The position numbers were made by a program, and so were the translations under genes. Positions 29,569-47,095 of a stretch of 64,000 nt of DNA are shown here, piece by piece. The first letter of the stretch is position 1, and each line of letters begins with the position of its first letter. Location: contig NZ_CP051680.1 of assembly GCF_012849095.1 (NCBI RefSeq), positions 2,976,001 to 3,040,000 of the forward strand, given 5' to 3'. The notes beneath the pieces are model-generated. The model searched no databases. It was not told where the DNA came from and worked only from the letters and a program-made list of their open reading frames with translations. The stretch comes from Cohnella herbarum (GTDB lineage: Bacteria; Bacillota; Bacilli; Paenibacillales; Paenibacillaceae).

Positions 29569-30693
29569 TTAACCATTCATTGTCAAATCCATGAGCTGAT
29601 TTAGTCGGGAAACATACGTGTGGTCCCGCAATGTCCGATAGAGGCCTCTTAACGCGATTTCTTGCCTTTCTTCCTCATGCTCCAAGTAGTAATCGACTTT
29701 GGCTGCCATGTCCTCCGGGGAGTCGTAAGTCACGATTTCAACTCCGGGAACATAGAATTGGGCGATATCTTCGCGCCAATCGGTTAATTGCAACGTTCCG
29801 GAAGCCGAAATCTCGAATGTTCGCGGGTTCGGAGAGACGGCGGTAATCCGGGCGCTGTTCTGATTAAAAGTTTCGTCGTCATGAGCCCGATGGGAATTGA
29901 TGACGATTCGGTTCGCGTTGTATTTCTCCGAGGTTTCATCCGGCTCCATCCACTTGTCTAAGTCGATTAACCCTTTCCAACGCTCGTATTCGGCGAGTCG
30001 ATCCCACCACATTCCGGAAATCCGCAAGCGCCTATGAGCCAGCAAGGGGATAGCTCGATTAAATAGCTCCACCCGATTCCAATAGGCGGTGCCTATGAAG
30101 CTGATCTCTCCGCGCATGGAGTGCGGCGTATTGCGCGGCCGGTAAGAACCCGGAAATACGCCAAGCGGCAAGTAGGAGACGCGGGCGCAACCGGAATTCG
30201 CGTAGTAGGGGAGACAATTGCGTTCCAACGTAAAGACGTGTTGATAGTGAACGGCAATGCCTGCGGTTATGTCCGTGTAATACGGATCGTCCGTAAACCA
30301 TATCGCCGTTCGGATTCCCAGCGCGTTAATCGCTTGAACCTTCTCGTGCGAGAGATGCATGCCGTCCAAAGCAAGCATCATATCCGGTCTAACAGCAGCC
30401 GCGACAGATACGATGTCGTCATCCGGAACGACCAAGGTTACCTGCTGCGCGATCAGCTTAAGCGTTTCGACGATTCCGTTATCTAACGGGGTATAAGGGT
30501 AACCTTTGCCCGATGTCACGTAGAGAACATGGATCGGCCTTTTGACGGGTACGGGAGAAGCCTTACGAGCAACGGCTTCGCAACGGCCGAACCAATGTCC
30601 GTCCGTCCATCCCAGAGAATACCCGGCTGAGCGACCTTTACGATACTCCGGGTCTACTTTGCTTTCGGTCAAACGTCTTTTCGTTTTACTCAA
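29569..30693 (-). CDS. CgeB-like spore-type glycosyltransferase with G-x3-G tag
   Basis: A 374-residue protein of the CgeB family: after the N-terminus a DUF3880-like domain (IHVLYVTSGKGY to IWFTDDPYYTD) and a Glyco_trans_1_2 domain (PNPRTFEISASGTLQLTD, then HEEERQEIALRGL). CgeB in B. subtilis is a late, sigma-K-dependent protein that modifies the outermost spore layer. Residues 20-36 (GRSAGYSLGWTDGHWFG) form the G-x3-G-x3-G tag shared with five other proteins here. The start is TTG at 30693, with GGAGGG 7 bases upstream. It is paralogous to the next upstream gene and follows it by 37 bases. Confidence 0.88.
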   Translation of the reverse strand: MSKTKRRLTESKVDPEYRKGRSAGYSLGWTDGHWFGRCEAVARKASPVPVKRPIHVLYVTSGKGYPYTPLDNGIVETLKLIAQQVTLVVPDDDIVSVAAAVRPDMMLALDGMHLSHEKVQAINALGIRTAIWFTDDPYYTDITAGIAVHYQHVFTLERNCLPYYANSGCARVSYLPLGVFPGSYRPRNTPHSMRGEISFIGTAYWNRVELFNRAIPLLAHRRLRISGMWWDRLAEYERWKGLIDLDKWMEPDETSEKYNANRIVINSHRAHDDETFNQNSARITAVSPNPRTFEISASGTLQLTDWREDIAQFYVPGVEIVTYDSPEDMAAKVDYYLEHEEERQEIALRGLYRTLRDHTYVSRLNQLMDLTMNG

Positions 30694-30730
30694 CCTTCAT
30701 CCCTCCCGCGCTGATTCTTGCCGTAATGCA

Positions 30731-31834
30731 TTAGGATTGAAGTCCGATTACGTTCAGCATCCTCCGAATCCGCTCGTTAAACGTATGATCCCGCTTCGTC
30801 CGCCGATAGCCTCTCATGGCGACGCGAAGACGTTCCTCCTCGTTCTTTAAATAGAAGTCCATCTGTTGAATCAGATGCTGAGCATTATCGAAGACGGCGA
30901 TTTCCGATCCGATCGCGAAATGCTCGGGAAGCTCGCTCCGCATATCCGTCAATTGCAACGTTCCGCATGCCGCCATTTCGAACGTTCTAGGGTTAATCGA
31001 TTCCGCCGGCCAATTGATTCCGTTCAGATTATCTTTGCCCGCTTCGGTCGTACGATGAAGATTAATGACGATTTTGGCTCCGTTGTAATACTTAGCGGTT
31101 TCCGGAACCTCGATCCACCCATCGTGAACGAACTTCGATAAAATCGGATACTGCTCCATCCTATCCCACAACTTGCCTCCGATAAGTACCCTCTTGTCTT
31201 GCAAATAAGGAGCGATCTGATCGAATAGCTCCACCCGGTTCCAGAACGCGATTCCGATGAAACAAATATCCGTTCGATATTGCTGGGGAACCGCCATAGG
31301 TTTGAATAGATCGAAATGAGCCGCGAGCGGCAAATGATAAACCTTCGAACAACCCAGAGATTGGTACAATCTGATGCATGATTTTTCATGGGTAAAAACA
31401 TATTCGTAGCGCGGGGCGATCGTCATCGTATTGTCGGTTACGTAAGGGTCGTCGACAAACCAGATCACCGTCGGAATTCCCAAGCCTCGAATTGCATCGA
31501 TCTGCTCCAGATGATCGGGAGGGAACACATGCAATCCATTCATTACGAGTACGGCATCCGGCCGATATTGCGCCGCTTGCAGCCGCATCTCCGCGGCCGA
31601 CGCGATGCGGACTTCGGCTACCTCGGCTTGCAATGCGGCGATCACGCCTTGATCAATCGCTTCGAAGCCTTGCGGGACATAGAGAATACGCGCTTTGCTT
31701 GGCGTATGAACGACCTGCTGGATCCCTTCGTCGATCCCTTTGCTGGCTCCTAATCTCCAACCTTCCAACCAACCGCTCCGAAAGCCGTCATTGCGGCCTC
31801 GTTCCCTGTTTTTCACAATCGAATGGCTCCGCAT
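30731..31834 (-). CDS. CgeB-like spore-type glycosyltransferase with G-x3-G tag (paralogue)
   Basis: A 367-residue protein closely similar to the product of 29569-30693: RILYVPQGFEAID, PTVIWFVDDPYVTDN, ICFIGIAFWNRVELFDQI, NPRTFEMAACGTLQLTD and YLKNEEERLRVAMRG. The tag GFRSGWLEGWRLGASKG occupies residues 17-33. ATG 31834 is chosen for GGGTG 6 bases upstream; ATG 31840 and TTG 31849 are also in frame. It is the first gene of the long minus-strand glycosylation operon ending at 23363. A CATATATTG box lies about 17 bases upstream. Confidence 0.88.
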   Translation of the reverse strand: MRSHSIVKNRERGRNDGFRSGWLEGWRLGASKGIDEGIQQVVHTPSKARILYVPQGFEAIDQGVIAALQAEVAEVRIASAAEMRLQAAQYRPDAVLVMNGLHVFPPDHLEQIDAIRGLGIPTVIWFVDDPYVTDNTMTIAPRYEYVFTHEKSCIRLYQSLGCSKVYHLPLAAHFDLFKPMAVPQQYRTDICFIGIAFWNRVELFDQIAPYLQDKRVLIGGKLWDRMEQYPILSKFVHDGWIEVPETAKYYNGAKIVINLHRTTEAGKDNLNGINWPAESINPRTFEMAACGTLQLTDMRSELPEHFAIGSEIAVFDNAQHLIQQMDFYLKNEEERLRVAMRGYRRTKRDHTFNERIRRMLNVIGLQS

Positions 31835-31850
31835 CCTCATCACCCGCAAT

Positions 31851-31859
31851 CAATATATG
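31851..31859 (-). promoter_or_regulatory. Sigma-E/K-like -10 box (CATATATTG) before the CgeB-like gene
   Basis: Fits CATAnnnT and lies 17 bases before the chosen start, which would make the leader very short. No matching -35 AC was found at 16-18 bases. Confidence 0.25.
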
Positions 31860-31915
31860 CGTTAGCGCAGGGTTGGACTTGGATACTTACCCGTCCAAGG
31901 GACGAATTTAGGCGG

Positions 31916-31960: not shown

Positions 31961-31978
31961 GACCAATCCAATATGCGT

Positions 31979-34900
31979 TTATTGAACGCGATGAACCTGA
32001 ACGTACTCATCCACCCGATTACGTATTTCGATCGGGACGACCGTCGATTTCATCACGCCGTTACTGTAGTTCACCGTAAATTCGAATTCGTAAGGCCCGT
32101 TCGGAAGCTCTTCGAAAATCAGAACGGTATCTCGCTCGCGCAAAATTTCATTCCATAATGTAGAGATCGGAGAAGCGGGCTTTAAGCTTTTTTTCAGTTC
32201 GGCCGTGGCAGCCGCTTTTACGGCGATCGCCCGCGTTCCTGAAGCCCCCGTATCCGTTACGATGGCTTCAAGCACGAAAGCCTCTCCCGCCCAGAATACG
32301 TCCTCTCCGCGATATTTGCCAGGATACTTGGTATTCCAGTTCCATCGGTTCGCTTCCCATTCCGGCGTATGACTGACTTTACCGGAGATCGTGAGTTCTC
32401 CGATCGGAATCGGCTTGGTTACGCTATCCGTTGCTCCATGAATATCCGTAACCAGCAATGTAACCAAATAAACTCCCGCCCGATTTATCGTCTCTCCGCC
32501 TACGATATTCGTATCTTTGGTCGATCCCGTTTTCCTTTCGGCATCCGGTGCGACTATTGTCCATAAGTAGCTTAACGGATCGCCGTCCGGGTCCGTCGAA
32601 CGATTTGCGATGTTTACGTTATCTCCTTCAAACACCGGTTTCGGCAACCAATCGAAATCGGCGATCGGTCCTCTGTTGATAATCGATATTCGTTGCGTAA
32701 TCTGCGCGGACTGGCCTTTGGAATCCGTAACGACTTGCCTGACCTCGATAACGCCGAGCGAAGAGAAGCTAGTCGTCCATGTCCCGCGGTCGGTTGAGCG
32801 AATCGTCTCCAGACTGTTTTCCGTTACGTTGCGTACATAATACGCGTGCTTCAGATTCGCTGCTGGACCATCCTCCTTATCGTGAGCCGTGGAAGTAACG
32901 GAGAACGGTAAATTCATGTAACTTGATCCCGGCGTTATGGTGAAGCCGGCGATCGGAGGATCGTCCGGAACGACCGGCGTATCGATCTCGATCGTTTGTT
33001 CCGTCCAGTAGCTCCATGCGCTATACTCGTCTTTCACCTGCATCCCTACGCGATACTCCCCGACTTCCTGAGGCGTGACGAGCTTTTGATTCACCATCGT
33101 TCCGTTCGGCGTAACATAGTAGTGTCTCCATTCGAGAACGCCGCGCGTCGCTCTGTAGTCGATTCCCGTCGCTTCGGTGCTGTATTTCGTCGCGCTAAGC
33201 CATCGATCCGGGTCGTAGCTTTCGTCGCTCCACACGACCGATTTATTAACCGGATGGACCGAAACCGTGAATTGGGATACCGGGCGACGATGAACGGTGA
33301 TGATTTGCCAGAATTCGTTCGACCACTTGCGATAATTGCCGAACTCCGTTGCCGGGAATAAGTAATTCGGGTGCGGGTCGTCCTGCGCTTTTAAGGTCAC
33401 CCGATAATTACCGACTTTATCGAAGATCAGCGCGGGGCTCGCTAAAGTTTGCCCGTGTAACGCTGACAGGCCTTGGTTGTTTAGGAATTTCGGCGTATGC
33501 GAGATCGTCCATAGGTTATTTTGCGCGGCGGGATCGTTCTCGGGATCCGTATACACGATATTGCTATAGCGTACATTCGCCGTAGCGGAACCTTCATCCC
33601 AGATCGCATAGCTGGACAGCCATTCCACATCCGGATTGGATAGATCCTTCTGGCTAATACCCGAGAAGCTTACATAGGACTTGTCCGAGAAAGGTCCGAA
33701 TTTGCCCGATTGGTAAGTCGCATCCGTTACTTCAAAATACGGAACGCCGTCCATGAACACCGCGATCTCATCGCCTTGCGTCAAGATCTTGAAGCCGTAG
33801 TCCGTATGGGATTGGAACGGGAAGTCGTTGCTGTCTAGTACGGTCCTATTGCCGTTAACATATTTGGATAGAAAGATTTTGCTACCGTCCATTTCAACCG
33901 CGTAGCGATATTTCGGATTCGTCATGCGAAACGATAGACCGGCTAATGTTGCATCCTCTTGCGGCGCATCCATATTTACGGTAAACGTATACTCCGCATC
34001 CTCATAAGCGTCCGGCGATACGAATTGACCGAGCTGGAATCCTTTGTACACTTCGGCATTAACCGGAGTTCCCACATCCAAAAACATGTGCGCTGAAGAA
34101 GATGGTCCGCCCCCTCCGCCTCCCGGCGCGTTCATCCAATAATCCGTATCGTACATCGACAAATACACGCCATCGCCAACATACTCACCGAACCGAATAT
34201 ATTTTGTAGTTTCTCCGCTGACGACCATCGGATAAGCTCTCTTCATATACTCGAAAGAACTGAAGTTATCATGCTTAACAAAAGCATTATCGATGGTGTT
34301 CGTCGCCCATCCGTAGCCGAAACTTCCATTGTGACCAATCGTAAAGCCTCCGCCGTTTCTTTGTACGGAAGAAGACGGACGTGCCATTCCCCAATCGCTT
34401 ACGGCTCCGGTCGTTAAATCGACCAAGTTGCTAAAATAATCGCTGCCCCACATGCTGTTCCATATTGGTTTTGTTGATCTTGTGATCGCTTGTTTGGTAA
34501 TCGGGTTAATGGCTAATACGGGTATAGTCTCCAAGTTCAGATCATACGGACCCGGTCTGGTTTCGGTTAACGTTGTACCTTTAATGCGAGCTTTAATGCC
34601 GATCGAATAATTCGGTTTGACTTGGACTAGGTAGAGTCCGGCTGGCGATTCCGGATTAAAATCCGGATCGAGATTAATCGTGTCGTTTTGGGCGGGTCTT
34701 GAGCAAGTGTTAATCATATACAGATATCGATTGCCGTCCGTGTCTTTCCAGTCCATCTTAGACATTGCACTCCACGAACACGTATAGAGCATTGGATCTT
34801 CGGTAAAAGGAATGCCTAATCCGTTTCTTCCCTTCCTAGCGTATGTATCTTGCGTCGCAGGTAGGGAAAGATCCTTTTGAACCGCCAGTTTCCCTTGTCG

Positions 34901-37900
34901 ATCAAATTCTTGGATCGTATGACTACCCCAGTTTGGGGTGAGAACCAAGTTGTCACCGTGTACCGAAGATACGACGCTGCCACCCGCCAGTTTTACGCGT
35001 TCGCCTTTATCGTACGAACTGGCTAGAAATTCTCCGGTGTACGCATCGAACGTATGAATATCCAAGTAATTTTTCGAACCGGGATAGTAGCTGGTGCTTG
35101 ATCCTTTCCCCTCGCTATAATAGTAAGCGGCAAACATCATCCGCTGATAAACAACATAAATTCGGCTACCCGTAATTTCGTATGTCAGGGGTTTCAATTG
35201 AACCTGTGCGCTTGAAGAAGCCTTTGAGAAATCACCCGAATCGGCTTGCGAATACCAATTACTCGCATTTTTTTTATCGTCTTCGGAATAATACGGAACA
35301 CTGTATTTGGGGGCAGTCGAATTGGATAAATTCAAAATAAAGTCGTATGGATTCGGGCCATTCCATTTATGCACGAGATTTTGTTCCCAGTTATACCCGT
35401 TGCACAAACTCATGTCGGTCGATCCACCGCAGGTCAACCTATATTCCGTTGAATATGCGGGAATCTTCTTTTTGTTTAGCGCAAAAATATAAATGTTATC
35501 ACCTTGGGTGTCGCCTTGGTCAAAATACATATAAGTCTTGTTGGTTCGTACTTTATTGTAAAATCTCGCAACACTTAAGTTCGTATAATCATCCCCGGCT
35601 GTATAGCCAGACCATTTCGTAGGGACAAGTAACGGCTGCGAACGACTTGAATCTCTCCAAGCCATAGATTTATACGGAGATAGATTATTCGGCCCGAATC
35701 CATTATCGGTTAACGAAGGGAATCCGCTTTGCGAGTCCCACCCCCCGCCGCCAAACCCGACCGATGCCATTGTTCTGAACTGCCTCTCCATGCCCTTTCC
35801 TAGCCCGGCAAGTAGAGTTTTTCCATCCTTGGACCACTTATAGGGACTATTCGTGGTCTTCGATGTCGTGTTCACATCATACAAGTCCCATTTCAGAATT
35901 TCACTGGCGGGGATCGAATCGTCCGTTGGCGGTTTCGGGATTTCATTTTCTCCTTCAATGAGGAACGAAACGCTTGGCGCTAAATTAACCGCATCGATAA
36001 TCCTTGTGCTTTCCGGCTGCGTATCCGATACCCACGCGCATTTCCCCCAATCCTCGCACACCCTTGCATCGATCAGGTATTTGCCTACCTTTGCCGGGCG
36101 TAAAATGACCTTCGTAAGGTTGCCTCCCGTTAACGTCGTCCATGCCTCGTCGTATATCCCATCATTGTTCGCATCATACTTATATCGATAACTAATGCTT
36201 ACGATTTTATCGCCGTCGGGACTATACGATTTATTGAAAATGTTATAGTCATTCACGCGAATCCCTAGCGGTGGAACATCCAGCTTTCCGATCGGCGGAT
36301 CGTCGGGGATAACCAATAGCGTCGCTTGTGCGGGGTACAGTGATTTTAATCCTGCGCTGTCCACGACATCGAGCTTAATCGTTTCCGTACCGGGTGTCGC
36401 GTAGACGTCCCGTTTATTGTCCCATAGATATTGCGAGATCGCCCTTCCGATGGGACTATAGCTCCGTTCGCCCGTAAAAGGCTGCGGAAGCGGCCGATTC
36501 TCTTTGACCTTCGTCGGCCCGTCGATCTTCGCGATCGGATTTTCGGGGATGACGTTGATATAAGCCGTCCGTCTAGATTCCGCTCCGAACGTATCGCGGG
36601 CGATAACCGTAACGCTGTGAGAACCTAGCTCCGTCGCTTTAAGGTTATAATGACCTTCGTCATGCTCCCAAGCCCCGTACTCGTCCGGAAAACTCCGCAC
36701 CCAAGCGCTAGAGCTATTGCCGAATAGCCAAGTGTAAGTAATCGCGTCGCCGTCAGGATCGTTAGGCAATGGCGGATTTTTCGTATTGTCTTGAATGACC
36801 CGTACGTTCACGCGCTGATTGATGACCACCTCTTGATCCGGAAAAATCCCGCTCCGATTATTTTCCCGGAAAAACCCGACCGAAAAATCCGGTGGACGAT
36901 TGCTTGCCGGACTTTCGATAGTAAGCGGCTTAATATTTACCCAGCCTGAATTCGCGCAATCCGCGGTAACTTTAATTGAAATAAAATTCGTTCCAACGCC
37001 CAAATTGCTCGGATAGTTGGAGTAGGCGAATGGAGAGTCGGTCGTCTGCCCTCTAACTTTAGAGCTCGTCCAGGTGAAGCCATCCTTCTCAATTAAATAC
37101 TCATGGTATAAATACGTACACGTCGCAGGGATCACAAAATCTTTCGGCTTCAGCGTGAAGCTATCCCTCCATTTGATATTTTGCGAGGGAAGGATATCGA
37201 AATTTCCGGTAATGTTCAAACTGTTTTCATAGAAAAAAGTAACATTTCCCGTCTTCTGAGAGGACGACAAATTCACCGTTGCAACTTTAACCGATAACAC
37301 TTGATCAGAAAATCCGGTGTAACTAACATTACCTCCAATAACCTTCCCATAGGACGACTTTGGGTTTACGGTTTGGGTCGCCGGCAGTTTATCTGCCGTG
37401 ATCGTTTCGGTTCCCTTCTGGGTATAAGTCCCGGTCGGTCCCGCCTTGACCATGTGCCTGACGTTAATTGTCCCTCCATCCTGTTGATAGTATAGATTTA
37501 GATAATATGTATCGTAGGTGCCGTTATATAAAAAGGATGGCGGAACCTCATCGATTCGGGTCCCTCCAGTCGGTACGCCTACCGTACTCTTCTTATATCC
37601 GACATAACTGTATGCTGGATTTGTTGCTGGCACGATTGAATAGGTTTGACCGCTGATCATGTTCGTAGATTGATCCGGAAACTGCGAATCAATGTTTTGG
37701 CCGCTTGTCGTGTAATGATGAACTTCTAGCTGACCCTGAAGCTCGATTTCAAACACTACCGGAACGAAAACTCGGAGAACCTTCATAGGATCTTTAACAT
37801 CTGGGTAAGGATTAGCATCTTGATCGATTACATTGTACTCCTCAGGCGACTCAAGATCAGCACGTAGATTCACATGAAAGCGAATCGTATCAGTTCCCAC

Positions 37901-38338
37901 TCCGGATTCATTCGATTTAACCGGATTGCTAGAGTTTGAACTTATATATCTGCTATAAGCATCAAAATCTTCAGTCGTCGTGCGTGATATATTAAAATAA
38001 CGAATGTCTGCAAGACTTCCATTAAACTTACGAACTTTTATGCTTTTTACCTTACGGTTTGGGAATGAAAATGTGTAACCATGTTCCATCGGCATGTTCG
38101 GTTGACCCCAATAGTGATCTTTTGAAGTATCCCAAGAACCATTGTTCTTACTCCACAATTCAGTGTACATGAATCCTACCGCATACCGCATAGTCGAATT
38201 GGGGTTTTCAGGATCTGCAGTAGGTTGAATCCATCCATTACTCCCGAGTACAGCGGCATCAAGCTTTTCGGAATAAACTGGAAGGATCGAAAAGATGAAG
38301 GAAAGTATAAGTGAATAGGCAAGTAATCTTCTTTTCAT
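31979..38338 (-). CDS. Giant secreted PKD-domain surface protein (2119 aa)
   Basis: The N-terminus is a signal peptide (MKRRLLAYSLILSFIFSILP, cleavage near residue 30). Residues about 260-400 look like MucBP-type repeats (VHHYTTSGQNI, VRHMVKAGPTGTYTQKGTETI). Several PKD-like Ig domains follow (for example DPDGDAITYTWLFG near 530-545 and DPDGDPLSYLWTI near residue 1950). The middle third is a large domain not recognised, followed by a LamG-like segment (FSGISQKDLSNPDVEW). There is no cell-wall anchor or SLH domain of its own. ATG 38338 has AGGAGAG 7 bases upstream and lies 12 bases after the previous stop. It is co-transcribed with an SLH protein and a copper-amine-oxidase-N-domain protein, so it is probably held at the S-layer by its partners. 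Confidence 0.85.
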   Translation of the reverse strand: MKRRLLAYSLILSFIFSILPVYSEKLDAAVLGSNGWIQPTADPENPNSTMRYAVGFMYTELWSKNNGSWDTSKDHYWGQPNMPMEHGYTFSFPNRKVKSIKVRKFNGSLADIRYFNISRTTTEDFDAYSRYISSNSSNPVKSNESGVGTDTIRFHVNLRADLESPEEYNVIDQDANPYPDVKDPMKVLRVFVPVVFEIELQGQLEVHHYTTSGQNIDSQFPDQSTNMISGQTYSIVPATNPAYSYVGYKKSTVGVPTGGTRIDEVPPSFLYNGTYDTYYLNLYYQQDGGTINVRHMVKAGPTGTYTQKGTETITADKLPATQTVNPKSSYGKVIGGNVSYTGFSDQVLSVKVATVNLSSSQKTGNVTFFYENSLNITGNFDILPSQNIKWRDSFTLKPKDFVIPATCTYLYHEYLIEKDGFTWTSSKVRGQTTDSPFAYSNYPSNLGVGTNFISIKVTADCANSGWVNIKPLTIESPASNRPPDFSVGFFRENNRSGIFPDQEVVINQRVNVRVIQDNTKNPPLPNDPDGDAITYTWLFGNSSSAWVRSFPDEYGAWEHDEGHYNLKATELGSHSVTVIARDTFGAESRRTAYINVIPENPIAKIDGPTKVKENRPLPQPFTGERSYSPIGRAISQYLWDNKRDVYATPGTETIKLDVVDSAGLKSLYPAQATLLVIPDDPPIGKLDVPPLGIRVNDYNIFNKSYSPDGDKIVSISYRYKYDANNDGIYDEAWTTLTGGNLTKVILRPAKVGKYLIDARVCEDWGKCAWVSDTQPESTRIIDAVNLAPSVSFLIEGENEIPKPPTDDSIPASEILKWDLYDVNTTSKTTNSPYKWSKDGKTLLAGLGKGMERQFRTMASVGFGGGGWDSQSGFPSLTDNGFGPNNLSPYKSMAWRDSSRSQPLLVPTKWSGYTAGDDYTNLSVARFYNKVRTNKTYMYFDQGDTQGDNIYIFALNKKKIPAYSTEYRLTCGGSTDMSLCNGYNWEQNLVHKWNGPNPYDFILNLSNSTAPKYSVPYYSEDDKKNASNWYSQADSGDFSKASSSAQVQLKPLTYEITGSRIYVVYQRMMFAAYYYSEGKGSSTSYYPGSKNYLDIHTFDAYTGEFLASSYDKGERVKLAGGSVVSSVHGDNLVLTPNWGSHTIQEFDRQGKLAVQKDLSLPATQDTYARKGRNGLGIPFTEDPMLYTCSWSAMSKMDWKDTDGNRYLYMINTCSRPAQNDTINLDPDFNPESPAGLYLVQVKPNYSIGIKARIKGTTLTETRPGPYDLNLETIPVLAINPITKQAITRSTKPIWNSMWGSDYFSNLVDLTTGAVSDWGMARPSSSVQRNGGGFTIGHNGSFGYGWATNTIDNAFVKHDNFSSFEYMKRAYPMVVSGETTKYIRFGEYVGDGVYLSMYDTDYWMNAPGGGGGGPSSSAHMFLDVGTPVNAEVYKGFQLGQFVSPDAYEDAEYTFTVNMDAPQEDATLAGLSFRMTNPKYRYAVEMDGSKIFLSKYVNGNRTVLDSNDFPFQSHTDYGFKILTQGDEIAVFMDGVPYFEVTDATYQSGKFGPFSDKSYVSFSGISQKDLSNPDVEWLSSYAIWDEGSATANVRYSNIVYTDPENDPAAQNNLWTISHTPKFLNNQGLSALHGQTLASPALIFDKVGNYRVTLKAQDDPHPNYLFPATEFGNYRKWSNEFWQIITVHRRPVSQFTVSVHPVNKSVVWSDESYDPDRWLSATKYSTEATGIDYRATRGVLEWRHYYVTPNGTMVNQKLVTPQEVGEYRVGMQVKDEYSAWSYWTEQTIEIDTPVVPDDPPIAGFTITPGSSYMNLPFSVTSTAHDKEDGPAANLKHAYYVRNVTENSLETIRSTDRGTWTTSFSSLGVIEVRQVVTDSKGQSAQITQRISIINRGPIADFDWLPKPVFEGDNVNIANRSTDPDGDPLSYLWTIVAPDAERKTGSTKDTNIVGGETINRAGVYLVTLLVTDIHGATDSVTKPIPIGELTISGKVSHTPEWEANRWNWNTKYPGKYRGEDVFWAGEAFVLEAIVTDTGASGTRAIAVKAAATAELKKSLKPASPISTLWNEILRERDTVLIFEELPNGPYEFEFTVNYSNGVMKSTVVPIEIRNRVDEYVQVHRVQ

Positions 38339-39307: not shown

Positions 39308-40012
39308 TTACTGACCGTCTAGCATCGATATACTTACATTTCGTTCGGCTCTATCGTTTAGCTCAAGCAACCGCGGTTTGCTTACCGGATCCACGACGCG
39401 GACCGCAAGCCACTCCTCCAACATAACCACCGTCTCCGCGCGGGATGAAGCCTTATTCAAGCCCATCGTCCCATCCGGATAACCAGCTACTATCCCTGTT
39501 CCATATGCCAGCGCGATAGATGGCAAATCTTTGTTCTGGAAATGGGCATGATCCGAGAAGGGCAAATTTTCTTTATTCAAATCGGCAAACGCGTCGAAAT
39601 AAGCCGCATATGCTTGTTCAACGGCCAACGTTCGAGCTATGATCCGAATGATCTCTAGTCTTCTAATCGGTTTTATGTAATCGGTAGAATCCGTCTCCTC
39701 CAACAATCCGAACTCGAACGCGGCCGCCACGTACCCCTGATACCAAGGAGATCCACCTTGCGAATTCGGCAGTTTGAGCGCTTCGACGACCATTTTGATA
39801 AACTCGGCTCTCGTTACCGCTTTCGAGGAATCGAAAGTCCCGTCCGAGTATCCGCTCACATAACCTTTCTTTACGGCTTGTCCGATTAACCCGCTTGCCC
39901 AATGGCTTTCGTTCACGTCTTTGAAATCTTTCGAATCCGCGGCCTCCGCTTGCCCGGCAGCCAACGATCCGCAAACAAGCATCGCCAGAATAAGCAAGGT
40001 TTTACTCATCAT
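39308..40012 (-). CDS. S-layer homology (SLH) domain protein
   Basis: A 234-residue secreted protein: signal peptide (LLILAMLVCGSLAAGQAEA) and three SLH motifs. The first (FKDVNESHWASGLIGQAVKK, YVSGYSDGTF, TRAEF) and the third (GTGIVAGYPDGTMGLNKASSRAE) are clear; the middle one is divergent. SLH trimers bind pyruvylated wall polysaccharide. ATG 40012 or the adjacent ATG has GGAGACGG upstream. As the first gene after a strong vegetative-type promoter and a leader hairpin, it probably anchors the operon's surface structure. Confidence 0.88.
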   Translation of the reverse strand: MMSKTLLILAMLVCGSLAAGQAEAADSKDFKDVNESHWASGLIGQAVKKGYVSGYSDGTFDSSKAVTRAEFIKMVVEALKLPNSQGGSPWYQGYVAAAFEFGLLEETDSTDYIKPIRRLEIIRIIARTLAVEQAYAAYFDAFADLNKENLPFSDHAHFQNKDLPSIALAYGTGIVAGYPDGTMGLNKASSRAETVVMLEEWLAVRVVDPVSKPRLLELNDRAERNVSISMLDGQ

Positions 40013-40359: not shown

Positions 40360-40363
40360 TTAC

Positions 40364-40429: not shown

Positions 40430-40732
40430 TTATACCTGTTGCTCATAAGCGATTTGATGCCCATCCTCGAAGCCTTTGCTAAAGCCTGCATTATAGCCGT
40501 CGTTGTACGCTTGATTAAAGCCGGCATTGTAAGCGGAACTGCCGCCTACGATTTGCTGCCTTCTCCCTCTGCTTCGACGCATCAAGGCTTTTCGCGAGCG
40601 CAGTTTACCTTTTCCTGTTCGGATTTTACCACGACGATTGAGTTTTCCCGTTTTCTTGGAGCCCCGTCGTCCGGCAACGGATTTCTTGGTTCCGCCTCTA
40701 ACGGAACGTGAGGAACGCGTTTTGCGCTTCAA
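40430..40732 (-). CDS. Small Lys/Arg-rich protein ending in a G-x3-G tag
   Basis: A 100-residue protein in two parts. Residues 1-62 are almost only Lys, Arg, Gly and Ser (pI extremely high). Residues 68-92 are a Tyr/Phe/Gly-rich motif with Gly every four residues (AYNAGFNQAYNDGYNAGFSK). It is essentially the free form of the tag seen on the glycosyltransferases and GT-D protein nearby. The start is TTG at 40732, overlapping the previous stop (TTGA), with GGAGGTG 7 bases upstream. I do not recognise a family. A structural or scaffold role on the spore surface is my inference. Confidence 0.75.
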   Translation of the reverse strand: MKRKTRSSRSVRGGTKKSVAGRRGSKKTGKLNRRGKIRTGKGKLRSRKALMRRSRGRRQQIVGGSSAYNAGFNQAYNDGYNAGFSKGFEDGHQIAYEQQV

Positions 40733-41025
40733 TCGGAGACACCTCCAGCATTTCGATTACTTGGTCTAATGCCAGCGGCTAGCCAAGGTGATGTCGGCCT
40801 CCCCCGGACAGGCGGACGCCAGCTCGTTCCGGATACCGTTCTTAATAAAGCCCCCTGCATGCCGGTCAAGACGCGCACATGCTCATGGAGAGTCGCGGGA
40901 GAAACGCCGGCGGCTCCGGTAACGTCTCCTACGCTTTCCAATATTTTAGCCAAGGCGGCTTGGCTTCTCGTTATCGCTCCCATGAGCTGAAGCTTAATTT
41001 CCCATTCTCGTTGCAGCGGGTTCAT
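40729..41025 (-). CDS. Small helical protein, unknown function (paralogue 3)
   Basis: A 98-residue protein, helical at the N-terminus (REWEIKLQLMGAITRSQAAL, AKILESVGDV) and ending in a Pro/Arg/Gly-rich tail. The pattern 'I-x3-Q-x2-[MLV]A-x-IL' is shared with the next two upstream proteins, so the three look like distant paralogues. It overlaps its neighbours by 4 bases on both sides (ATGA, TTGA) and so belongs to a tightly coupled operon. No named family was recognised and there is no signal peptide. Confidence 0.7.
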   Translation of the reverse strand: MNPLQREWEIKLQLMGAITRSQAALAKILESVGDVTGAAGVSPATLHEHVRVLTGMQGALLRTVSGTSWRPPVRGRPTSPWLAAGIRPSNRNAGGVSD

Positions 41026-41354
41026 TTGTCCCGATCTCCATCCATACCTCCGAACATGGAAGCCATGTTATCGCCATCATCGGTGTCCGGATTTATGATG
41101 ACTTTCATATTACGGCTTAAACCGTTGCACAGCTTGGTAAGTCCGTCGATAATCTCGAGATTCTGCTCGTTGACTTGCAGACAAGTGCTCAATTGATCGC
41201 TATGGCCTTCGTACGTATCGTTCGTGATGTGGGTACATAACCAATTTCGAACCTTTTCCGCTTCGGCTGCTTTTGCCTCTAAGATCATCGCTACGTTCCA
41301 CTGCATTTTCGCAATGGCGTCTAGCGTAAGGTGATAGGCTTCCTCCCGACTCAT
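41022..41354 (-). CDS. Small helical protein, unknown function (paralogue 2)
   Basis: A 110-residue acidic protein. Residues 1-40 are predicted helical (LTLDAIAKMQWNVAMILEAK), with the motif shared by its two neighbours. The C-terminus is Asp/Gly/Met-rich (NPDTDDGDNMASMFGGMDGD). One Cys lies in LCTHITND and others in STCL and KLCN. It starts 30 bases after the first gene of the operon. Function not known. Confidence 0.72.
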   Translation of the reverse strand: MSREEAYHLTLDAIAKMQWNVAMILEAKAAEAEKVRNWLCTHITNDTYEGHSDQLSTCLQVNEQNLEIIDGLTKLCNGLSRNMKVIINPDTDDGDNMASMFGGMDGDRDK

Positions 41355-41384
41355 CCCTCCTGCCCCCCTCTCCCGATCAAACCT

Positions 41385-41675
41385 TTATTCTTCATCCGGG
41401 GAATCTCCCATCGCCTTCACGACGTTCGTCATGCTATCGGCGACCGCTTCCTGCAAATCCGCCAGACTGTTCAAATAAGAGATAACGCCTTTTGTTACGT
41501 TTGAGGAACTATCAAGAAGTCCATCCAGGCCGTTTAACTGGGGATGTTCATCCGGCAACGCCTGAACCAAATGCGCCATACGCACGGCCACATGCCGTTT
41601 CGCATCCAATATCCTGGCCATCTGCTGATGTGATTTGGACAAATGAACGACGATCTCCGTCAACAATTCCTGCAT
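41385..41675 (-). CDS. Small helical protein, unknown function (paralogue 1)
   Basis: A 96-residue, almost entirely helical protein (LLTEIVVHLSKSHQQMARIL, then DAKRHVAVRMAHLVQALP; later LNSLADLQEAVADSMTNVVK). It is the first gene of a four-gene operon whose last member is the basic tag protein. ATG 41675 has AGGGG 10 bases upstream. The motif QQMARILDAK matches QWNVAMILEAK and QAALAKILES in the following two proteins. No family recognised. Confidence 0.72.
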   Translation of the reverse strand: MQELLTEIVVHLSKSHQQMARILDAKRHVAVRMAHLVQALPDEHPQLNGLDGLLDSSSNVTKGVISYLNSLADLQEAVADSMTNVVKAMGDSPDEE

Positions 41676-41826
41676 GCTGCCGCATCCCCTATCCTTAACG
41701 ATTCCCTATTCATGTAGCTGCTCGCTAACGTCTATTCACCTACAGCATATGCCGCCATTCAGCGCTTGCCACAGGACCAAGCGCCCACATTGTCGGATGC
41801 CCGCACCTTCTTGGAAACGAACGGTT

Positions 41827-41907: not shown

Positions 41908-43308
41908 TTACAGCACTTGGCGAAGCAATGGCGGAGAAATAATCGGAAGTCCTTGTACTCGCTCCGACAACATCTCCGGCGTTATCGTCTTCGTAGGCTT
42001 AAGGTGCAGGTTCCAAGCCTGCAAGACCGCTTTACTGATCACTCGCCGCGCTATTCCGTTCTCCAGGTGAAAGATCTTTTCGTCCGGAAGAGTAACGACT
42101 CCCGTCTCCATTCCCGTCGCATCGCCCGAACTACGCCAACGCTTTTCCACCTCGCCGGAGGAAATCGGTTCTCCCAGCGGCCAACGACGAAGATCGACCT
42201 GCGAGATTCGTACGACGGGGAACGAGATCTCCCCTTCGACTACCCTCCGTTTGCCATGCTCGATCCAATAGTAATTCGCTCCGACCGCCTTTACGACGAT
42301 CTGCTCCGGATAGAAGCTTGCCACATGCTCTAATGAGCCCAGATTAAGCTCGTCATGTTGACGAGCGTGATCGATCCATTCGTAAGGATTATGCCATTTG
42401 TCCATAAAATAAACCTGGTTCCGGTCGTTCACTTCTTGAAACCGATCTCCCAGAGCCTTCATGCTGACGCTGCCGAAATGATGGATGAACGTATCTTGAG
42501 CCATGACAAGGTTCTTGCCGAGCAGCCTCACCCGGATGTTATAATCGTCATCCTCGAAGTTCCCGATCTCGAAGCCTTCGTCGAAATAACCGATTCCTTC
42601 GAATAACTCCCTGCGGAACAATAAGCAAAACCCTGTCAGTCGATCGATCTGGCACCAACGCGAAGGATCCGATACGTTATTTTCGCGCGCAAACCTCGGC
42701 ATATCCGCAATATCGTCGTAGGGAACGTTAATTTTCTGATCCCCGCTAATATAATTGGTTACGGGCCCTACCATGCCGATGCTTTCATCGCTTAACAAGC
42801 AAGTCAGCAAATTATCCAACCAATTGTCCGTAACGAGAATGTCATTGTTCAGCAACAGAATCGTTCTTCCTTTGGCCATCATCATACCGGAGTTAATCGC
42901 GCCCGCAAACCCTCTGTTCTGATCCAGCAAGCGATAACGAACTTGCCCGCCAAGTCCCTGGAGATAAGCAGCCGTTCCATCCGATGAAGCATTGTCCACG
43001 ACGATGATTTCGTAAGGCAAATCCGTGTTTTCCATAATGCTGTCGATACATTGCATCAACATGTTCAGCTGGTTAAACGTCGGAATCACGATGCTTGTTC
43101 CTTCGAATAACGTCGGGTAGCTTTGAATGCCGGAATGCACGCCTTCCCGGTAGCCTTCGTCATACCCTGTTTGGAACTTCGCTAAGCGCACGTCTCCTTT
43201 AGGTCGCGAGCCTTTACGTCTACTCTTGCGCTTGATCTTGGAGGCATCCGAAGCGGAACTTGGCTTAGGATGCTTGATGCGACCGGCTTTCGTTCTCTCG
43301 GCAGTCAT
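41908..43308 (-). CDS. Family 2 glycosyltransferase with basic N-terminus, G-x3-G tag and KR-module
   Basis: A 466-residue protein with three parts. Residues 1-46 are Lys/Arg-rich and lead into the tag GYDEGYREGVHSG (48-60). Residues about 70-310 form a GT2 domain (SIVIPTFNQLNMLMQCIDSI, VDNASSDGT, NRGFAGAIN, LLNNDI, GYFDEGFEIGNFEDDDYNIR). The rest contains KR-modules (YYWIEHGKRRVVEGEISFPV, RRWPLGEPI) like those at 21938 and 27961. It is the last gene of the six-gene operon, 13 bases after the GT-D gene. The GT2 domain is paralogous to that at 45225. Likely decorates a spore-surface glycoprotein. Confidence 0.88.
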   Translation of the reverse strand: MTAERTKAGRIKHPKPSSASDASKIKRKSRRKGSRPKGDVRLAKFQTGYDEGYREGVHSGIQSYPTLFEGTSIVIPTFNQLNMLMQCIDSIMENTDLPYEIIVVDNASSDGTAAYLQGLGGQVRYRLLDQNRGFAGAINSGMMMAKGRTILLLNNDILVTDNWLDNLLTCLLSDESIGMVGPVTNYISGDQKINVPYDDIADMPRFARENNVSDPSRWCQIDRLTGFCLLFRRELFEGIGYFDEGFEIGNFEDDDYNIRVRLLGKNLVMAQDTFIHHFGSVSMKALGDRFQEVNDRNQVYFMDKWHNPYEWIDHARQHDELNLGSLEHVASFYPEQIVVKAVGANYYWIEHGKRRVVEGEISFPVVRISQVDLRRWPLGEPISSGEVEKRWRSSGDATGMETGVVTLPDEKIFHLENGIARRVISKAVLQAWNLHLKPTKTITPEMLSERVQGLPIISPPLLRQVL

Positions 43309-43321
43309 TTCATTTCACCTC

Positions 43322-44464
43322 CTATGGCGTTGATTCATTTCTTTCGGGGTGCGCCAACCCGGCCATCCGATTCGCCAAGTGTCCGAAATCAAAGGTCACC
43401 TTCCCGCCGACGCCGGCGAGATGAACCGCGATCGGAATCGCCGCAATCCCGGCAGCTACAAGCGCGATATCGTAATCGTAAGCATTGGCTTCAGCCACGA
43501 CTCGAGGATAATCGGCATATCCGTTAACCGGAGTAATGACCCCCGTCACCTCAACCCCTTGCATAATCAAAGCTTCGCTTAGCTGAGCGGCGACATCGCC
43601 GATAACGAGAACTTTACGTCCTCTAAGCAATTTCAACAGCAACCCCTGCTCCTCCAGCAAGTAGTTCATTGTCGATGTGGTATACCGCAGCTTCTCGTAC
43701 TCGATTCCATGCGCCCTAAGGACCGCAAATAGAAGAGGTTGAAAATAAGACGCGCGCGACATCGGGACACCGATCAATGATGCCACCTTCACGCAAGTCG
43801 CCAGCTCGTCTCGCGCCTCGAGATTCGGGATATTCACGCCGGCATAGGGCAGGAAATACCCTGCGCGGCTGATTTCTTCAAGAGAAAGCACCTTTTCCTG
43901 CGCCAAAGTAAGCAGTTCGCCGTCTCCCAGTCTGATGAAAGCATAGGACTTCTTCCCCCGCAATGCTTCTTCGAGCTCCCGGTAAACCGCATTGCTATCT
44001 AGAAGAGGTATCCCTCGGTTTTTTAATACTTGAACGCCGGCAGCGACGGCCTCGCGAACGGTAAGATCGGGAATAATGAGATCGGACGGGAGATGCTCCT
44101 CCAATATTCTCTCACCACCCGCGATTAACCCTTCTTGATAACCTTGGTCATAGCTCAATCGGGCAATTGGCGTCTCTAACTGTTTCTCTGCCTGTTTCTC
44201 TTCCAACGGCAGGATCGTCGTCGTTTTTCGCCTCTGATCGTATCGGCGTTTCCTCGTCCCTCCTCTCCTGCGGACGCGATTTCTTTTGCTTTTCGCTAGC
44301 TTTGGAGCAAGTTTTGCTAGCTTTGGGGTAAATTTTGCTAGCTTTGCCTTCCCCTTAGTTGACCTAGGTTCGCCTTTCTCGGGCTTTGAAGCCATCTTAA
44401 CCGACTTAGAAGGAATGGGGGATACGGCCGAATGGACCGGTTTACGCAAGCCGGTGATGCTCAT
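43322..44464 (-). CDS. GT-D fold glycosyltransferase with long basic N-terminus and G-x3-G tag
   Basis: A 380-residue protein. Residues 25-80 are Lys/Arg-rich, including a short repeat KLAKFTPKLAKLAPKLAK; the tag SYDQGYQEGLIAGG follows at 104-117. The C-terminal 250 residues resemble the GT-D (DUF1792-type) glycosyltransferase fold, with the signature SYAFIRLGDGELL and a Rossmann-like end (RGRKVLVIGDVAAQLSEALI). ATG 44464 overlaps the thymidylyltransferase stop (ATGA) and has GGGGG 7 bases upstream. GT-D enzymes extend O-glycans on serine-rich proteins in streptococci; the acceptor here is unknown. Confidence 0.8.
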   Translation of the reverse strand: MSITGLRKPVHSAVSPIPSKSVKMASKPEKGEPRSTKGKAKLAKFTPKLAKLAPKLAKSKRNRVRRRGGTRKRRYDQRRKTTTILPLEEKQAEKQLETPIARLSYDQGYQEGLIAGGERILEEHLPSDLIIPDLTVREAVAAGVQVLKNRGIPLLDSNAVYRELEEALRGKKSYAFIRLGDGELLTLAQEKVLSLEEISRAGYFLPYAGVNIPNLEARDELATCVKVASLIGVPMSRASYFQPLLFAVLRAHGIEYEKLRYTTSTMNYLLEEQGLLLKLLRGRKVLVIGDVAAQLSEALIMQGVEVTGVITPVNGYADYPRVVAEANAYDYDIALVAAGIAAIPIAVHLAGVGGKVTFDFGHLANRMAGLAHPERNESTP

Positions 44465-45186
44465 GTAATAGCCCCCTTTAATCTCCTTCCAGCCTCTTCT
44501 AGCGATTCGAACGTTCCGGCGTCCGTCCACCAACCCGTAAGTTCCTTATACGTAAGCTTGCCGTTCTGGGCATACGCGTTGTTCACGTCGGTGATTTCGA
44601 GCTCCCCTCTGCGGGAAGGCTTAACGCCGTCGATCATATCGAATACTTCGGAATCGTAAAAATAAAGACCCGTCACGCAAAAGTCGGATTGAGGCAGCTC
44701 CGGCTTCTCTTCGATTAGAACGATTCGGCCGCTCGTCTCATCCAGCTTAGGAACACCGTAACGGCGAGGATCGTCGACTTTCTTCAGAAGAACCATCGCG
44801 CCGTTCGTCTGCTTCTCGTATTGCTCGCAATAAGGTTTCAAGCTTTCCTCGAATAAATTATCCCCCAACAACACGATGAATTTATCCTTCGGCAGAATCA
44901 GAGGCCTCGCGAGTTCCAATGCCTGCGCGATGCCGCCGGCTTCCTCTTGCACGCGATAGATTATGGACACTCCCCAATCCCTGCCGCTGCCGAGTACGTC
45001 CGCAAAGCTACCCAGAGCTGCCCGATTGGTTACGATAACGATATCCCTAATTCCCGAGTCGCGTAATTTCGTAATGCCGTAACAGATCATCGGATACGAT
45101 CCGACGGGAAGTAAGTGTTTGTTCGTCCAGTAGGTGAGCGGTTTAAGACGCGTTCCCGTTCCACCCGCCAGTATGACAGCCTTCAA
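44461..45186 (-). CDS. rfbA: Glucose-1-phosphate thymidylyltransferase (RmlA-like)
   Basis: A 241-residue nucleotidyltransferase: N-terminal AVILAGGTGTRLKPLTYWTN (nucleotide loop), KHLLPVGSYPM, GDNLFEESL (metal Asp), EEKPELPQS and WWTDAGTFESL. It transfers dTMP to glucose-1-phosphate, giving dTDP-glucose, the precursor of dTDP-rhamnose and other deoxysugars. It is shorter than the classical 290-residue RmlA, as in the SpsI-like group of the B. subtilis spore polysaccharide locus. No rmlB, rmlC or classical rmlD lies in the window, so the later steps must be encoded elsewhere. Confidence 0.88.
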   Translation of the reverse strand: MKAVILAGGTGTRLKPLTYWTNKHLLPVGSYPMICYGITKLRDSGIRDIVIVTNRAALGSFADVLGSGRDWGVSIIYRVQEEAGGIAQALELARPLILPKDKFIVLLGDNLFEESLKPYCEQYEKQTNGAMVLLKKVDDPRRYGVPKLDETSGRIVLIEEKPELPQSDFCVTGLYFYDSEVFDMIDGVKPSRRGELEITDVNNAYAQNGKLTYKELTGWWTDAGTFESLEEAGRRLKGAIT

Positions 45187-45224
45187 AGCAATTCCTCCTC
45201 GTAGTTAGGAGCGGAGTATGTTTC

Positions 45225-45962
45225 TCAGATGAATACTCTCGGATCCAAATTCCATTTGTCCATGAACATCCGGTAGTTACGCTCGACAAGCTGTTGTTGC
45301 TTGAGTTCGCCTTCATTCTTAAAGCTGGCGCTGCCCTCGTGAAATATTAAGGCATCGTGGCAGACGAGAAGGCTGAATCCGTGAAGCCGGGTTCGTAGAC
45401 AGAAATCGTCGTCTTCGTAATGTCCCGGCGAGAACCGTTCGTCCAAGAGGCCGATCTTCTCCATCAGGCTGCGGCGAAAAACAAAACAAAAACCAACGAT
45501 TCTTTCGACCCTAACCCATTTCGCATAATCCGAGACGTTAACCTCTACCGCGATTCTTTGAAATTCCGCTAGATCCTCGAAAGGGTATTGTACTTGCTGC
45601 GATCCGCTAGCGTAATTCGTCACAGGCCCGACAATGCCGACTTCGGAAGAACTAAGAAGCGCCGCAGACATGTTGCTTAGCCAATTTTTCGTAACAACCG
45701 TATCGTTGTTCAACAGAACAAGCGTGTCTCCGGAAGAGAGCCGCAAACCTTTGTTGCAAGCAATCGGGAAACCTTCATTCCGTGGCAAGGAAAGCAGCGC
45801 AAGATTCTGTTGCATACACCAAGATGCCGTTCCGTCCGTTGAACCGTTATCTACGACAATGATTTCATAAGGCATTTCCGTATACTGGCGGATGGAGTAA
45901 ATGCATCTTTGCAGTAAATCGAGCCGATTGTACGTCGGAATGATGATGGAAGCTCTGGTCAT
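45225..45962 (-). CDS. Family 2 glycosyltransferase
   Basis: A 245-residue GT2 of the rhamnosyltransferase type: RASIIIPTYNRLDLLQRCIY, VDNGSTDGTASW, NEGFPIACNKG, LLNNDTVV (metal site) and RFSPGHYEDDDFCLR. ATG 45962 overlaps the previous stop (ATGA) and follows GGGAGTGGGAGG. It lacks the basic stretch and tag of its neighbours. With the thymidylyltransferase gene next to it, a dTDP-deoxysugar donor is plausible. Confidence 0.88.
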   Translation of the reverse strand: MTRASIIIPTYNRLDLLQRCIYSIRQYTEMPYEIIVVDNGSTDGTASWCMQQNLALLSLPRNEGFPIACNKGLRLSSGDTLVLLNNDTVVTKNWLSNMSAALLSSSEVGIVGPVTNYASGSQQVQYPFEDLAEFQRIAVEVNVSDYAKWVRVERIVGFCFVFRRSLMEKIGLLDERFSPGHYEDDDFCLRTRLHGFSLLVCHDALIFHEGSASFKNEGELKQQQLVERNYRMFMDKWNLDPRVFI

Positions 45963-47095
45963 CCCTCCCACTCCCCTAACACGCTTCGGTTCCGTTGGGT
46001 ATCCGCGAATTGCAATCGACTGCCCCTGGCGCTCATCGCTTCTCTCCACGCCTCCGCATGATCTCCGGCCGCTTTTCTCCACTTCTGCTCCGTATCTTCG
46101 TTTCTTGCAAATCTTCGGACTCCCGCCGATCCTCCGAACCCGATACGCAAGCCTTTCAGAATGGCTAAAGCATGAGCCTTAACGGGGATGGCGAAAGCCG
46201 CGGCCCCGAGAGTATCGAAGGCATTCCGGGAAACCGCGAACGGGAGATTGGACAACGAATTGATCTTCAAATCTCCCCGGTTCAAACTCGTATTCAGAAA
46301 CTCGTGAAACCGATCGATCTCTCCCCGTTGATGGAACAATCCCATCTGACCGGAAACGTCGTTAAGGGCAATATCGGATTTGCCCTCGCATTCCCATATA
46401 AATCGAGCCAACTGATCAGCAGGAACCGTCTTCTCCCCGTCAACGAACAGGATCATGTCCGCTCCTGTCAATTTGGCGCCCAGAGCCCGTCCAATGTCCG
46501 GTTCGACTTTCTCGGGCAGGTAGGCGATTACCGTTTTCGGATCGTTTCTCGCTAGCGCGAACAACCATTCGGACGGTTTGCCAAGAACGATAACGACCTC
46601 TTGCAGCGGCAACGCGGCCAATTGCAGCAGCACTTCCTGCAACGAGGCTTCATTCGTTCCGGCACAGACTACGGCGGCTGCGTGATTGCGCAAAGGGACC
46701 GGAGAAATATTTATATGTCTTCCAGCACCCTGCATGAACCCTTCGGAATAACTTTTTCCTCTGGCCTGCACGAGTTTCCAATCCGTATTCGAAGCTCGAT
46801 TCGTTTCCAAGAACCTCTGATTCCATTTCCTATGAATGATTTCTCTTAGCGAATCCGGACGATTGTCATCGGCCGAACTTCCGCGCCATTCGATTCCGTC
46901 CTTCAAGCCCGCTGAATGATCCATCGGACGCCCGGCTTGAGCTCGAATGCGAGTCCTTCGCGCCCCATTGCGATTGGGAACCCTCTGCCTCGATTTCATT
47001 TTCCTCTTCACTCGGTCGACTCGAACGGGAGAACGAGCCTTAACGGATTTAGCGGAACGGCGCGGACGATTTCCCCTTCGGAGTTGACTTTTCAT
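45959..47095 (-). CDS. Degenerate family 2 glycosyltransferase with basic N-terminus and G-x3-G tag
   Basis: A 378-residue protein. Residues 1-60 are Arg/Lys-rich; the tag SYSEGFMQGAG lies at 115-125. The last 240 residues align with the GT2 encoded just upstream (SRNAFDTLGAAAFAIPVKAH against [27 protein letters not shown] against ALNDYSG). The nucleotide and metal motifs are altered: the DAD of the neighbour is DGE here (residues 219-221) and NGSTDGS is replaced by GKPSEW. It may be an inactive relative kept as a scaffold. ATG 47095 has GGTGAG upstream; ATG 47116 is an alternative overlapping the previous stop. Confidence 0.75.
   Translation of the reverse strand: MKSQLRRGNRPRRSAKSVKARSPVRVDRVKRKMKSRQRVPNRNGARRTRIRAQAGRPMDHSAGLKDGIEWRGSSADDNRPDSLREIIHRKWNQRFLETNRASNTDWKLVQARGKSYSEGFMQGAGRHINISPVPLRNHAAAVVCAGTNEASLQEVLLQLAALPLQEVVIVLGKPSEWLFALARNDPKTVIAYLPEKVEPDIGRALGAKLTGADMILFVDGEKTVPADQLARFIWECEGKSDIALNDVSGQMGLFHQRGEIDRFHEFLNTSLNRGDLKINSLSNLPFAVSRNAFDTLGAAAFAIPVKAHALAILKGLRIGFGGSAGVRRFARNEDTEQKWRKAAGDHAEAWREAMSARGSRLQFADTQRNRSVLGEWEG

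Follow-up and report, generated by a model that had tools for sequence, protein, structure and literature searches.

A glycine-repeat tag shared by glycosyltransferases and a small basic protein in a gene cluster of Cohnella herbarum and other Paenibacillaceae

Known glycine-repeat helices and the tagged proteins of the window

Protein segments with a glycine at every fourth position (GX3 repeats) are known from FliH, where they follow the formula AxxxG(xxxG)mxxxA and have Tyr or Phe in over 45% of x1 positions, and where a pairing of helices, likely with themselves, has been proposed (PMC2674601). They are also known from yeast Lto1, in which Gly substitutions in the middle and at the end of a deca-GX3 motif lower Yae1 complex formation (PMC4523923). 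Glycosyltransferases (GTs) of the Bacillus subtilis crust (CgeB, CotSA, SpsA and others) are potentially involved in spore-surface glycans (PMC10502511), and CotB and CotG of the same species, which interact in the coat, contain regions rich in Ser, Lys and Arg (PMC7821199). In this work we describe a GX3 repeat, further called the tag, that is carried by GTs of three folds and by a 100-amino acid (aa) protein combining it with a basic arm (the tag-only protein), all encoded in one gene cluster of Cohnella herbarum. The analyzed stretch of DNA (the window) covers 64,000 nucleotides of contig NZ_CP051680.1 (positions 2,976,001 to 3,040,000).

The tag is a GX3 repeat with a small residue or Gly at each fourth position and an aromatic residue right after it; Tyr or Phe occupy the x1 position in 60% of 599 repeats. 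The initial annotation of the window had pointed to six proteins with such a motif, and translation confirmed all six open reading frames (ORFs), their coordinates and their motifs, each on the minus strand. Two of them, CgeB-A (29569..30693) and CgeB-B (30731..31849), are GT-B type enzymes passing the PF13524 cut-off (112.3 and 107.5 bits, respectively; CgeB-A also matches DUF3880), with the N-terminal tags GYSLGWTDGHWFG at 30586..30624 and GFRSGWLEGWRLGASKG at 31736..31786. The GT2 family enzyme (41908..43308) passes the PF00535 cut-off with 100.9 bits and has the tag GYDEGYREGVHSG (43129..43167) behind an arm rich in Lys and Arg (K/R) at 43174..43305, while the GT-D fold enzyme (43322..44533), above the cut-offs of PF22882 (251.8 bits, 5e-75) and NF040628 (217.6 bits), combines an arm with the tag SYDQGYQEGLIAG (44117..44155). 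A degenerate GT2-like protein (45959..47116) with an arm and the short tag SYSEGFMQG (46727..46753) is 30% identical to another GT2, encoded at 47101, and gave no match, PF00535 included, in the Pfam scan.

The sixth is the tag-only protein (40430..40732), whose motif is AYNAGFNQAYNDGYNAGFSKGFEDGHQIA. Its GX3 stretch (40448..40534) has the small residues A, G, A, G, G, G, G and A at positions 67, 71, 75, 79, 83, 87, 91 and 95. It had been described as nothing but the tag, which proved inexact, as about half of it is a K/R-rich arm (40571..40729). A long arm of this kind precedes the tag in four of the six proteins (40430, 41908, 43322 and 45959), just as annotated, and the two CgeB proteins have a short basic stretch only (K/R 8/23 and 7/21 residues).

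The earlier view of the motif as undescribed found no support: it follows the FliH formula, to which residues 75-95 of the tag-only protein conform with m=3, and is similar to the Yae1-Lto1 deca-GX3 motif. With FliH/YscL it shares a soluble GX3 helix and the preference for Tyr/Phe at x1; it differs from FliH in that the tag-only protein has 100 aa and the module is spread over several enzymes. Membership of the tag-only protein in the FliH family was rejected (at most 16.9 bits against NCBIfam cut-offs of 180-293). In Yae1-Lto1, a GX3 motif backs heteromeric adaptor binding (PMC4523923). Tails of 20 out of 24 tag-only proteins match Yae1_N (PF09811) at E<=0.01, and this family is precomputed on some database members (e.g., P0005); the window protein was nevertheless not accepted as a member, as it scores 19.3 bits against the Pfam cut-off of 27.5. 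Moreover, the runs of tag-only proteins comprise 4-6 Gly and not about ten repeats, the proteins are bacterial, and their module is fused to glycosyltransferases. A search of solved structures with the tag-only profile gave two weak matches to plant proteins (E 0.012 and 0.19), taken as chance.

With the B. subtilis crust the cluster has CgeB-type and GT-A enzymes in common. The crust differs, presumably, in its gene set and order. CgeB relatives outside the family Paenibacillaceae gave eight matches in 6 of 53 genomes; the three that could be read at the N-terminus (L152, L154, and L155) all begin at the GT fold and are tagless, in line with the annotated claim that the tag is an addition to catalysis. 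In two of these loci (L154 and L155, other families of the class), the untagged CgeB gene directly follows a gene for a small protein that looks spore-surface-like by eye. The arms resemble the CotB and CotG regions in being basic, Ser-containing and probably disordered; they differ in lacking a tandem repeat (by eye) and in varying freely. CotH-dependent phosphorylation of the arms was considered and set aside: 17 of 21 genomes, that of C. herbarum among them, encode a CotH family, and nothing links CotH to the arms. No open-licence PMC paper was found to describe the tag or the cluster by title or abstract. The class of motif is known; that enzymes of three glycosyltransferase folds share it, together with a dedicated tag-only partner, looks undescribed as far as our searches go.

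Conservation and specificity of the tag

Orthologues were called in 40 neighbourhoods, hand-picked from 104 GT2-positive genomes so as to span the genera and to lie well away from contig ends, and the sample is therefore enriched for intact clusters. Within the first 190 residues, the strict tag was present in all GT2 (38/38), CgeB-A (30/30), CgeB-B (26/26) and called tag-only proteins (13/13), in 21 of 30 GT-D enzymes (two more have it beyond residue 190) and in 6 of 15 degenerate GT2 proteins. Among enzyme neighbours regarded as untagged, it was found in none of the 36 nucleotidyltransferases (named from sequence by eye), 24 GT2b and 21 GT4 proteins, and in one of 50 armed GT2 ORFs; of the remaining neighbours, the three small proteins gave 0/13, 3/21, and 0/16, and the WIAG-tail protein 0/29. 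The tag thus clusters with glycosyltransferases across the family, as had been expected.

Shuffling of the first 190 residues gave an expectation of 0.3-0.9 tagged proteins per family against 13-38 seen for GT2, CgeB-A, CgeB-B, GT-D and the tag-only protein (for the latter, the contrast arises partly by construction), and of at most 1.4 in any cluster family. Gly-Gly pairs at spacing 4 numbered 136, 104, 100 and 78 in the heads of the tag-only, GT2, CgeB-A and CgeB-B proteins, respectively, whereas spacings 1-3 and 5-7 yielded only 1-35; the pairs of these four sets also concentrate at spacing 8. GT-D shows a modest excess (69 against 36-53 at other spacings) and the degenerate GT2 family none (29 against 14-35). 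The tag annotated in the 45959 protein is real as a motif and weak across its relatives, where it may be due to chance or composition.

Among the matches listed for GT2 homologues, 115 of 120 carry the tag under a slightly looser pattern, and three of the five tagless ones have merely 4-13 residues ahead of the GT domain. In an alignment of 25 GT2 sequences, Gly 48, 52, 56, and 60 are invariant, and the preceding arm drifts in length and sequence. The tags are conserved in an enzyme-specific manner, e.g., GWDHGYWFG in CgeB-A and GYREGVQSG in GT2.

The initial annotation had made its reading depend on how frequent the motif is in unrelated proteins of the same genome, and here the answer varies with the search model: an equal frequency, by which the reading would be refuted, was nearly reached with the bare pattern but was not seen with either of the two profiles described below. 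The bare three-glycine pattern is nearly as common as its control, with 47 genome matches at the DNA level against 34 for the reversed pattern, for which reason this search was rejected as evidence for the tag. It was present in 19 of 371 control ORFs (from 20 stretches elsewhere in the genome), in none of them behind more than 20% K/R, and a false positive in the window (GYVSGYSDG) lies in the ORF at 39308, which by its motif we take to be an SLH-domain protein. Unlike the bare pattern, an arm-plus-tag profile gave at E<=10 three matches in the genome, all in this cluster; it scored 95 candidates and misses three of the six window tags at this threshold. A profile of the tag-only helix without the arm placed the enzyme tags ahead of the controls and detected at E<=1 57 tagged enzymes (22 GT2, 17 CgeB-B, 12 CgeB-A, five GT-D, and one degenerate GT2), 13 tag-only proteins, one further tagged unassigned protein, one SLH-like protein and none of the 371 controls; at E<=10, the result comprised five controls and three SLH-like proteins. 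The specificity lies in three or more repeats, the N-terminal position and the basic context.

A profile search increased the number of tag-only copies to 41, located in 38 of the 40 loci, as compared with 13 found by ORF calling alone (the caller is greedy, and genes are lost to antisense ORFs); in the remaining two genomes (G038 and G131), the gene lies 35-37 kb away from GT2. Three Gly are invariant in 41 of 41 copies and a fourth in 40, the longest run comprises 4-6 Gly, and the stretch preceding the tag contains 28% R, 16% K and 9% S. The protein was found in 128 of 148 genomes of the family (E<=1e-5). A class sample searched at E<=1e-6 contained it in 25 of 27 own-family genomes and in 0 of 272 others, the genomes listed for this sample including none from another family of the same order. 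The protein database contained 201 relatives at E<=0.01, and the organism names visible among the 120 matches listed were Cohnella, Paenibacillus and Paenibacillaceae only, plus a compost metagenome. A GX3 run was present in all 121 homologues inspected (115 from the 120 listed of 201, plus six), with at least 25% K/R ahead of it in 106; in genus g13, a long neutral or acidic linker separates the arm from the tag. The tag-only proteins are a conserved family, so far unnamed. At least 14 of the 120 listed rows bear the name FliH or Flagellar assembly protein, and ribosomal L34 and L20 appear once each; the proposal discussed below offers a likely role for a family at present carrying these names or called hypothetical. 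In the 40 loci, the assigned neighbours are the cluster's own families, many ORFs being unassigned and flagellar genes not having been searched for. An ORF with a GX3 repeat that is FliH-like (locus L113, named by eye) is located elsewhere in the genome.

Proposed docking of tagged enzymes and alternative readings

We consider it somewhat probable that GX3 helices dock the tagged glycosyltransferases on the tag-only protein, acting as a scaffold, in one complex made during sporulation at the spore surface. The tag would be a soluble alpha-helix of the FliH/Yae1 type, the Gly face of which would pack on another GX3 helix; in the cluster it is carried by GT2, CgeB-A and CgeB-B, in most cases by GT-D, and by a varying set of other proteins. 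The tag-only protein, made of a GX3 helix, a polycationic arm and little else, would act as an adaptor collecting these enzymes. The gathered complex would be produced by sporulation-specific expression, and the basic arms of tagged and some untagged proteins may anchor it at the surface of the developing spore by binding a polyanionic partner, a role also conceivable for other basic regions of coat proteins such as CotB and CotG; the product would be a spore-surface glycan. A broader version, put forward only tentatively, assumes a docking code by which a spore glycosylation complex of several enzymes would be built, with the small tag-only family as a dedicated adaptor recruiting interchangeable GT-A, GT-B and GT-D enzymes through its GX3 helix and newcomers joining by gaining the same helix. 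Compared with cohesin-dockerin, to which this would be a parallel, the proposed assembly is soluble, bacterial and dependent on glycine-helix pairing. In our judgement, the assembly of spore-surface glycosyltransferases on a growing surface is poorly understood; with an easily recognizable helix and a tiny partner present almost throughout the family, it can be addressed directly in laboratory Paenibacillus, and the helix or the tag-only protein may serve as a marker of such glycosylation clusters across Paenibacillaceae.

In favor of docking are the presence of the tag in each GT2, CgeB-A and CgeB-B orthologue called in the 40 loci and its near-absence from tagless cluster members, Gly positions that stay invariant beside drifting arms, the enzyme tags picked up by the profile of the tag-only helix, the variation of the tagged set by lineage, the share of Tyr/Phe at x1 and the precedent of Lto1 and Yae1. 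In the GT2 model, the tag is part of helix 37-63, followed by a GT domain modelled with confidence, and residues 1-57 have a predicted local distance difference test (pLDDT) score <50. The tag-only protein and GT2 co-occur. GT2 (E<=1e-100) was detected in 104 of 128 genomes with the tag-only protein and in 0 of 20 without it, weaker GT2 matches not having been searched for in those 20; the Fisher p of 6e-13 ignores relatedness and is inflated, because 13 of the 20 genomes belong to one genus. Among those inspected of the 24 tag-only genomes lacking such a match, four (L187, L189, L190, and L191) had a weaker tagged GT2. The genus in question (g8) constitutes a natural contrast group: SpoIVA, SpoVA, the tag-only protein and GT2 are missing in all 13 genomes, one of them (G124) has a weak partial CgeB match, and Spo0A was kept in both genomes sampled. 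What bears on the supposed restriction to spore formers is this single genus, in which two sporulation markers are missing; the family offers few further contrasts. Spo0A itself was found in 25 of 25 tag-only carriers of the class sample, but also in 247 of 299 genomes overall.

CATA-type -10 elements are linked to mother-cell sigma factors. In the window, CATATGCT (41744..41751, minus strand) is a -10-like element preceding the run of small-protein, tag-only and CgeB genes. The pattern CATAnnnT was found upstream of the third small protein in 15 of 16 orthologous regions, of 47101-type genes in 32 of 50 and of CgeB-B in 15 of 26, as compared with 42 of 315 control ORFs; these three families, the ones of highest interest, were picked from 17 after the count. 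Before GT2, it was present in 4 of 38 cases, and both GT2 and tag-only genes sit inside gene runs. No consistent -35 was found with these elements in the upstream regions scanned.

Several observations weigh against docking on a sporulation-made scaffold. CATAnnnT was found in none of the 13 regions directly upstream of the tag-only gene; a sigma-K pattern including the -35 (AC at 16-18) occurred before six of 16 third small proteins, six of 50 47101-type genes and 0 of 26 CgeB-B genes (10 of 315 controls); and the sigma-E-like pattern, as written, had no match in the upstream regions scanned. Seven genomes with SpoIVA and SpoVA lack the tag-only protein, GT2 and CgeB-A, showing that spore formers can lose the system and that sporulation does not depend on it. 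The co-loss may also be a simple loss of the whole cluster and, for genes of one cluster, is a weak sign of binding. The strict tag is missing in seven of 30 GT-D and nine of 15 degenerate GT2 proteins and is thus dispensable for some enzymes, and three of 21 second small proteins match the strict pattern without being called tagged, i.e., the pattern also occurs where no tag is called. One genome (G015, 88% complete) encodes the tag-only protein, and in the roughly 10 kb around it no tagged enzyme was called. The monomer model of the tag-only protein contains a single helix (68-99), with low confidence throughout (mean pLDDT of 56).

The same helices could serve to homodimerize each enzyme separately, with no shared scaffold, the tag-only protein being an independent basic coat protein with the same helix. 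FliH GxxxG helices are thought likely to self-pair (PMC2674601), the tags of CgeB-A and GT2 differ from each other, so that separate homodimers fit them nearly as well, and G015 has the tag-only protein without a called partner nearby. However, the limitation of the module to one cluster, its one-way co-occurrence with the tag-only protein, and the duplication of the latter beside tagged enzymes in the reduced clusters L192 and L193 fit mutual binding more easily, and we regard separate homodimers as rather unlikely. It is still less likely, and in our opinion improbable, that the arm is the functional part, targeting the enzymes to coat or membrane in a CotB/CotG-like manner, and that GX3 is a helical spacer between the arm and the enzyme. 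Arms are indeed present (by eye) on both tagged and untagged cluster proteins, CotB and CotG, with their Ser/Lys/Arg-rich regions, interact in the B. subtilis coat (PMC7821199), and this genome encodes a member of the CotH family; yet the conservation sits in the tag and not in the arm, the CgeB-B of L073 is tagged with almost no arm (K/R 1/19), and in g13 a linker intervenes between both parts.

The initial annotation had offered sorting or docking without deciding between them. Of these, docking is favored here. That a separate receptor of the spore coat reads the tag as a true sorting signal, with the tag-only protein as further cargo, seems very improbable, the GX3 grammar being known from helix pairing, despite the occurrence of the tag on several cargo-like proteins of one spore-linked cluster; no receptor candidate was found, none having been searched for specifically. 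A coincidence, or an artefact of a composition rich in Gly and aromatic residues, would explain why the bare motif is so common in the genome and in control ORFs, but it is contradicted by the shuffling, the spacing-4 periodicity and the cross-genus conservation of the tag-only, GT2 and CgeB proteins, and for these families it is hardly credible.

Gene order, reduced clusters and other features

A widely kept gene order was recognized: GT4 with a C-terminal arm, CgeB-A, CgeB-B, the tag-only protein, up to three small proteins, GT2, GT-D, nucleotidyltransferase, GT2b, degenerate GT2, armed GT2 and the WIAG-tail repeat protein. In the window, the tagless members with K/R arms (by eye) are the Pfam-assigned GT4 glycosyltransferase (27961..29535, minus strand; arm C-terminal) and GT2 (47101..48015, minus strand; arm N-terminal). 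At the listed 5' end of the latter, CATACAAT (48014..48021, minus strand) is part of the block GTACAT..GCCGTTGC..CATACAAT, which is conserved before 47101-type genes in many genomes (window copy at 47990-48060); as the listed start lies inside this block, the true one is probably downstream. The three small proteins of 98, 110 and 96 aa (40729..41675, minus strand), located between the tag-only and GT2 genes in a conserved order, are helical by eye and retained in many cluster loci; no significant match was obtained in NCBIfam for the 110- and 96-aa proteins or in Pfam for the 98-aa one. The frequent neighbour with a WIAG-tail at its end (NF012201, 71.9 bits) is a 2966-aa protein (48122..57022, minus strand) made of short repeats. 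As it is Ser/Thr-rich and BLAST matches it in 33 of 40 loci (with at least 300 bits in 28), it is a possible candidate for the glycan acceptor.

The tagged set differs by lineage. Reduced clusters (L187, L189, and L196) retain the tag-only protein, a tagged GT2 and the WIAG-tail protein, while those of genus g17 (L192 and L193) have two tag-only copies each, beside several tagged CgeB and further tagged proteins. Extra tagged unassigned proteins were found in L096 (397 aa) and L193 (392 aa, at 10671-11849, GT4-like by eye). A contig scan with GT2 yielded only three loci, one of them from the close relative Cohnella lupini, which were not used.

Between the CgeB genes and the tag-only gene, the window encodes a 2119-aa secreted-looking repeat protein (31979-38338) and the 234-aa SLH-like protein (39308-40012), both with related ORFs in a few other loci. 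Outside the cluster, at 15401-17612, there are two adjacent, similar LacI-type regulators (by eye).

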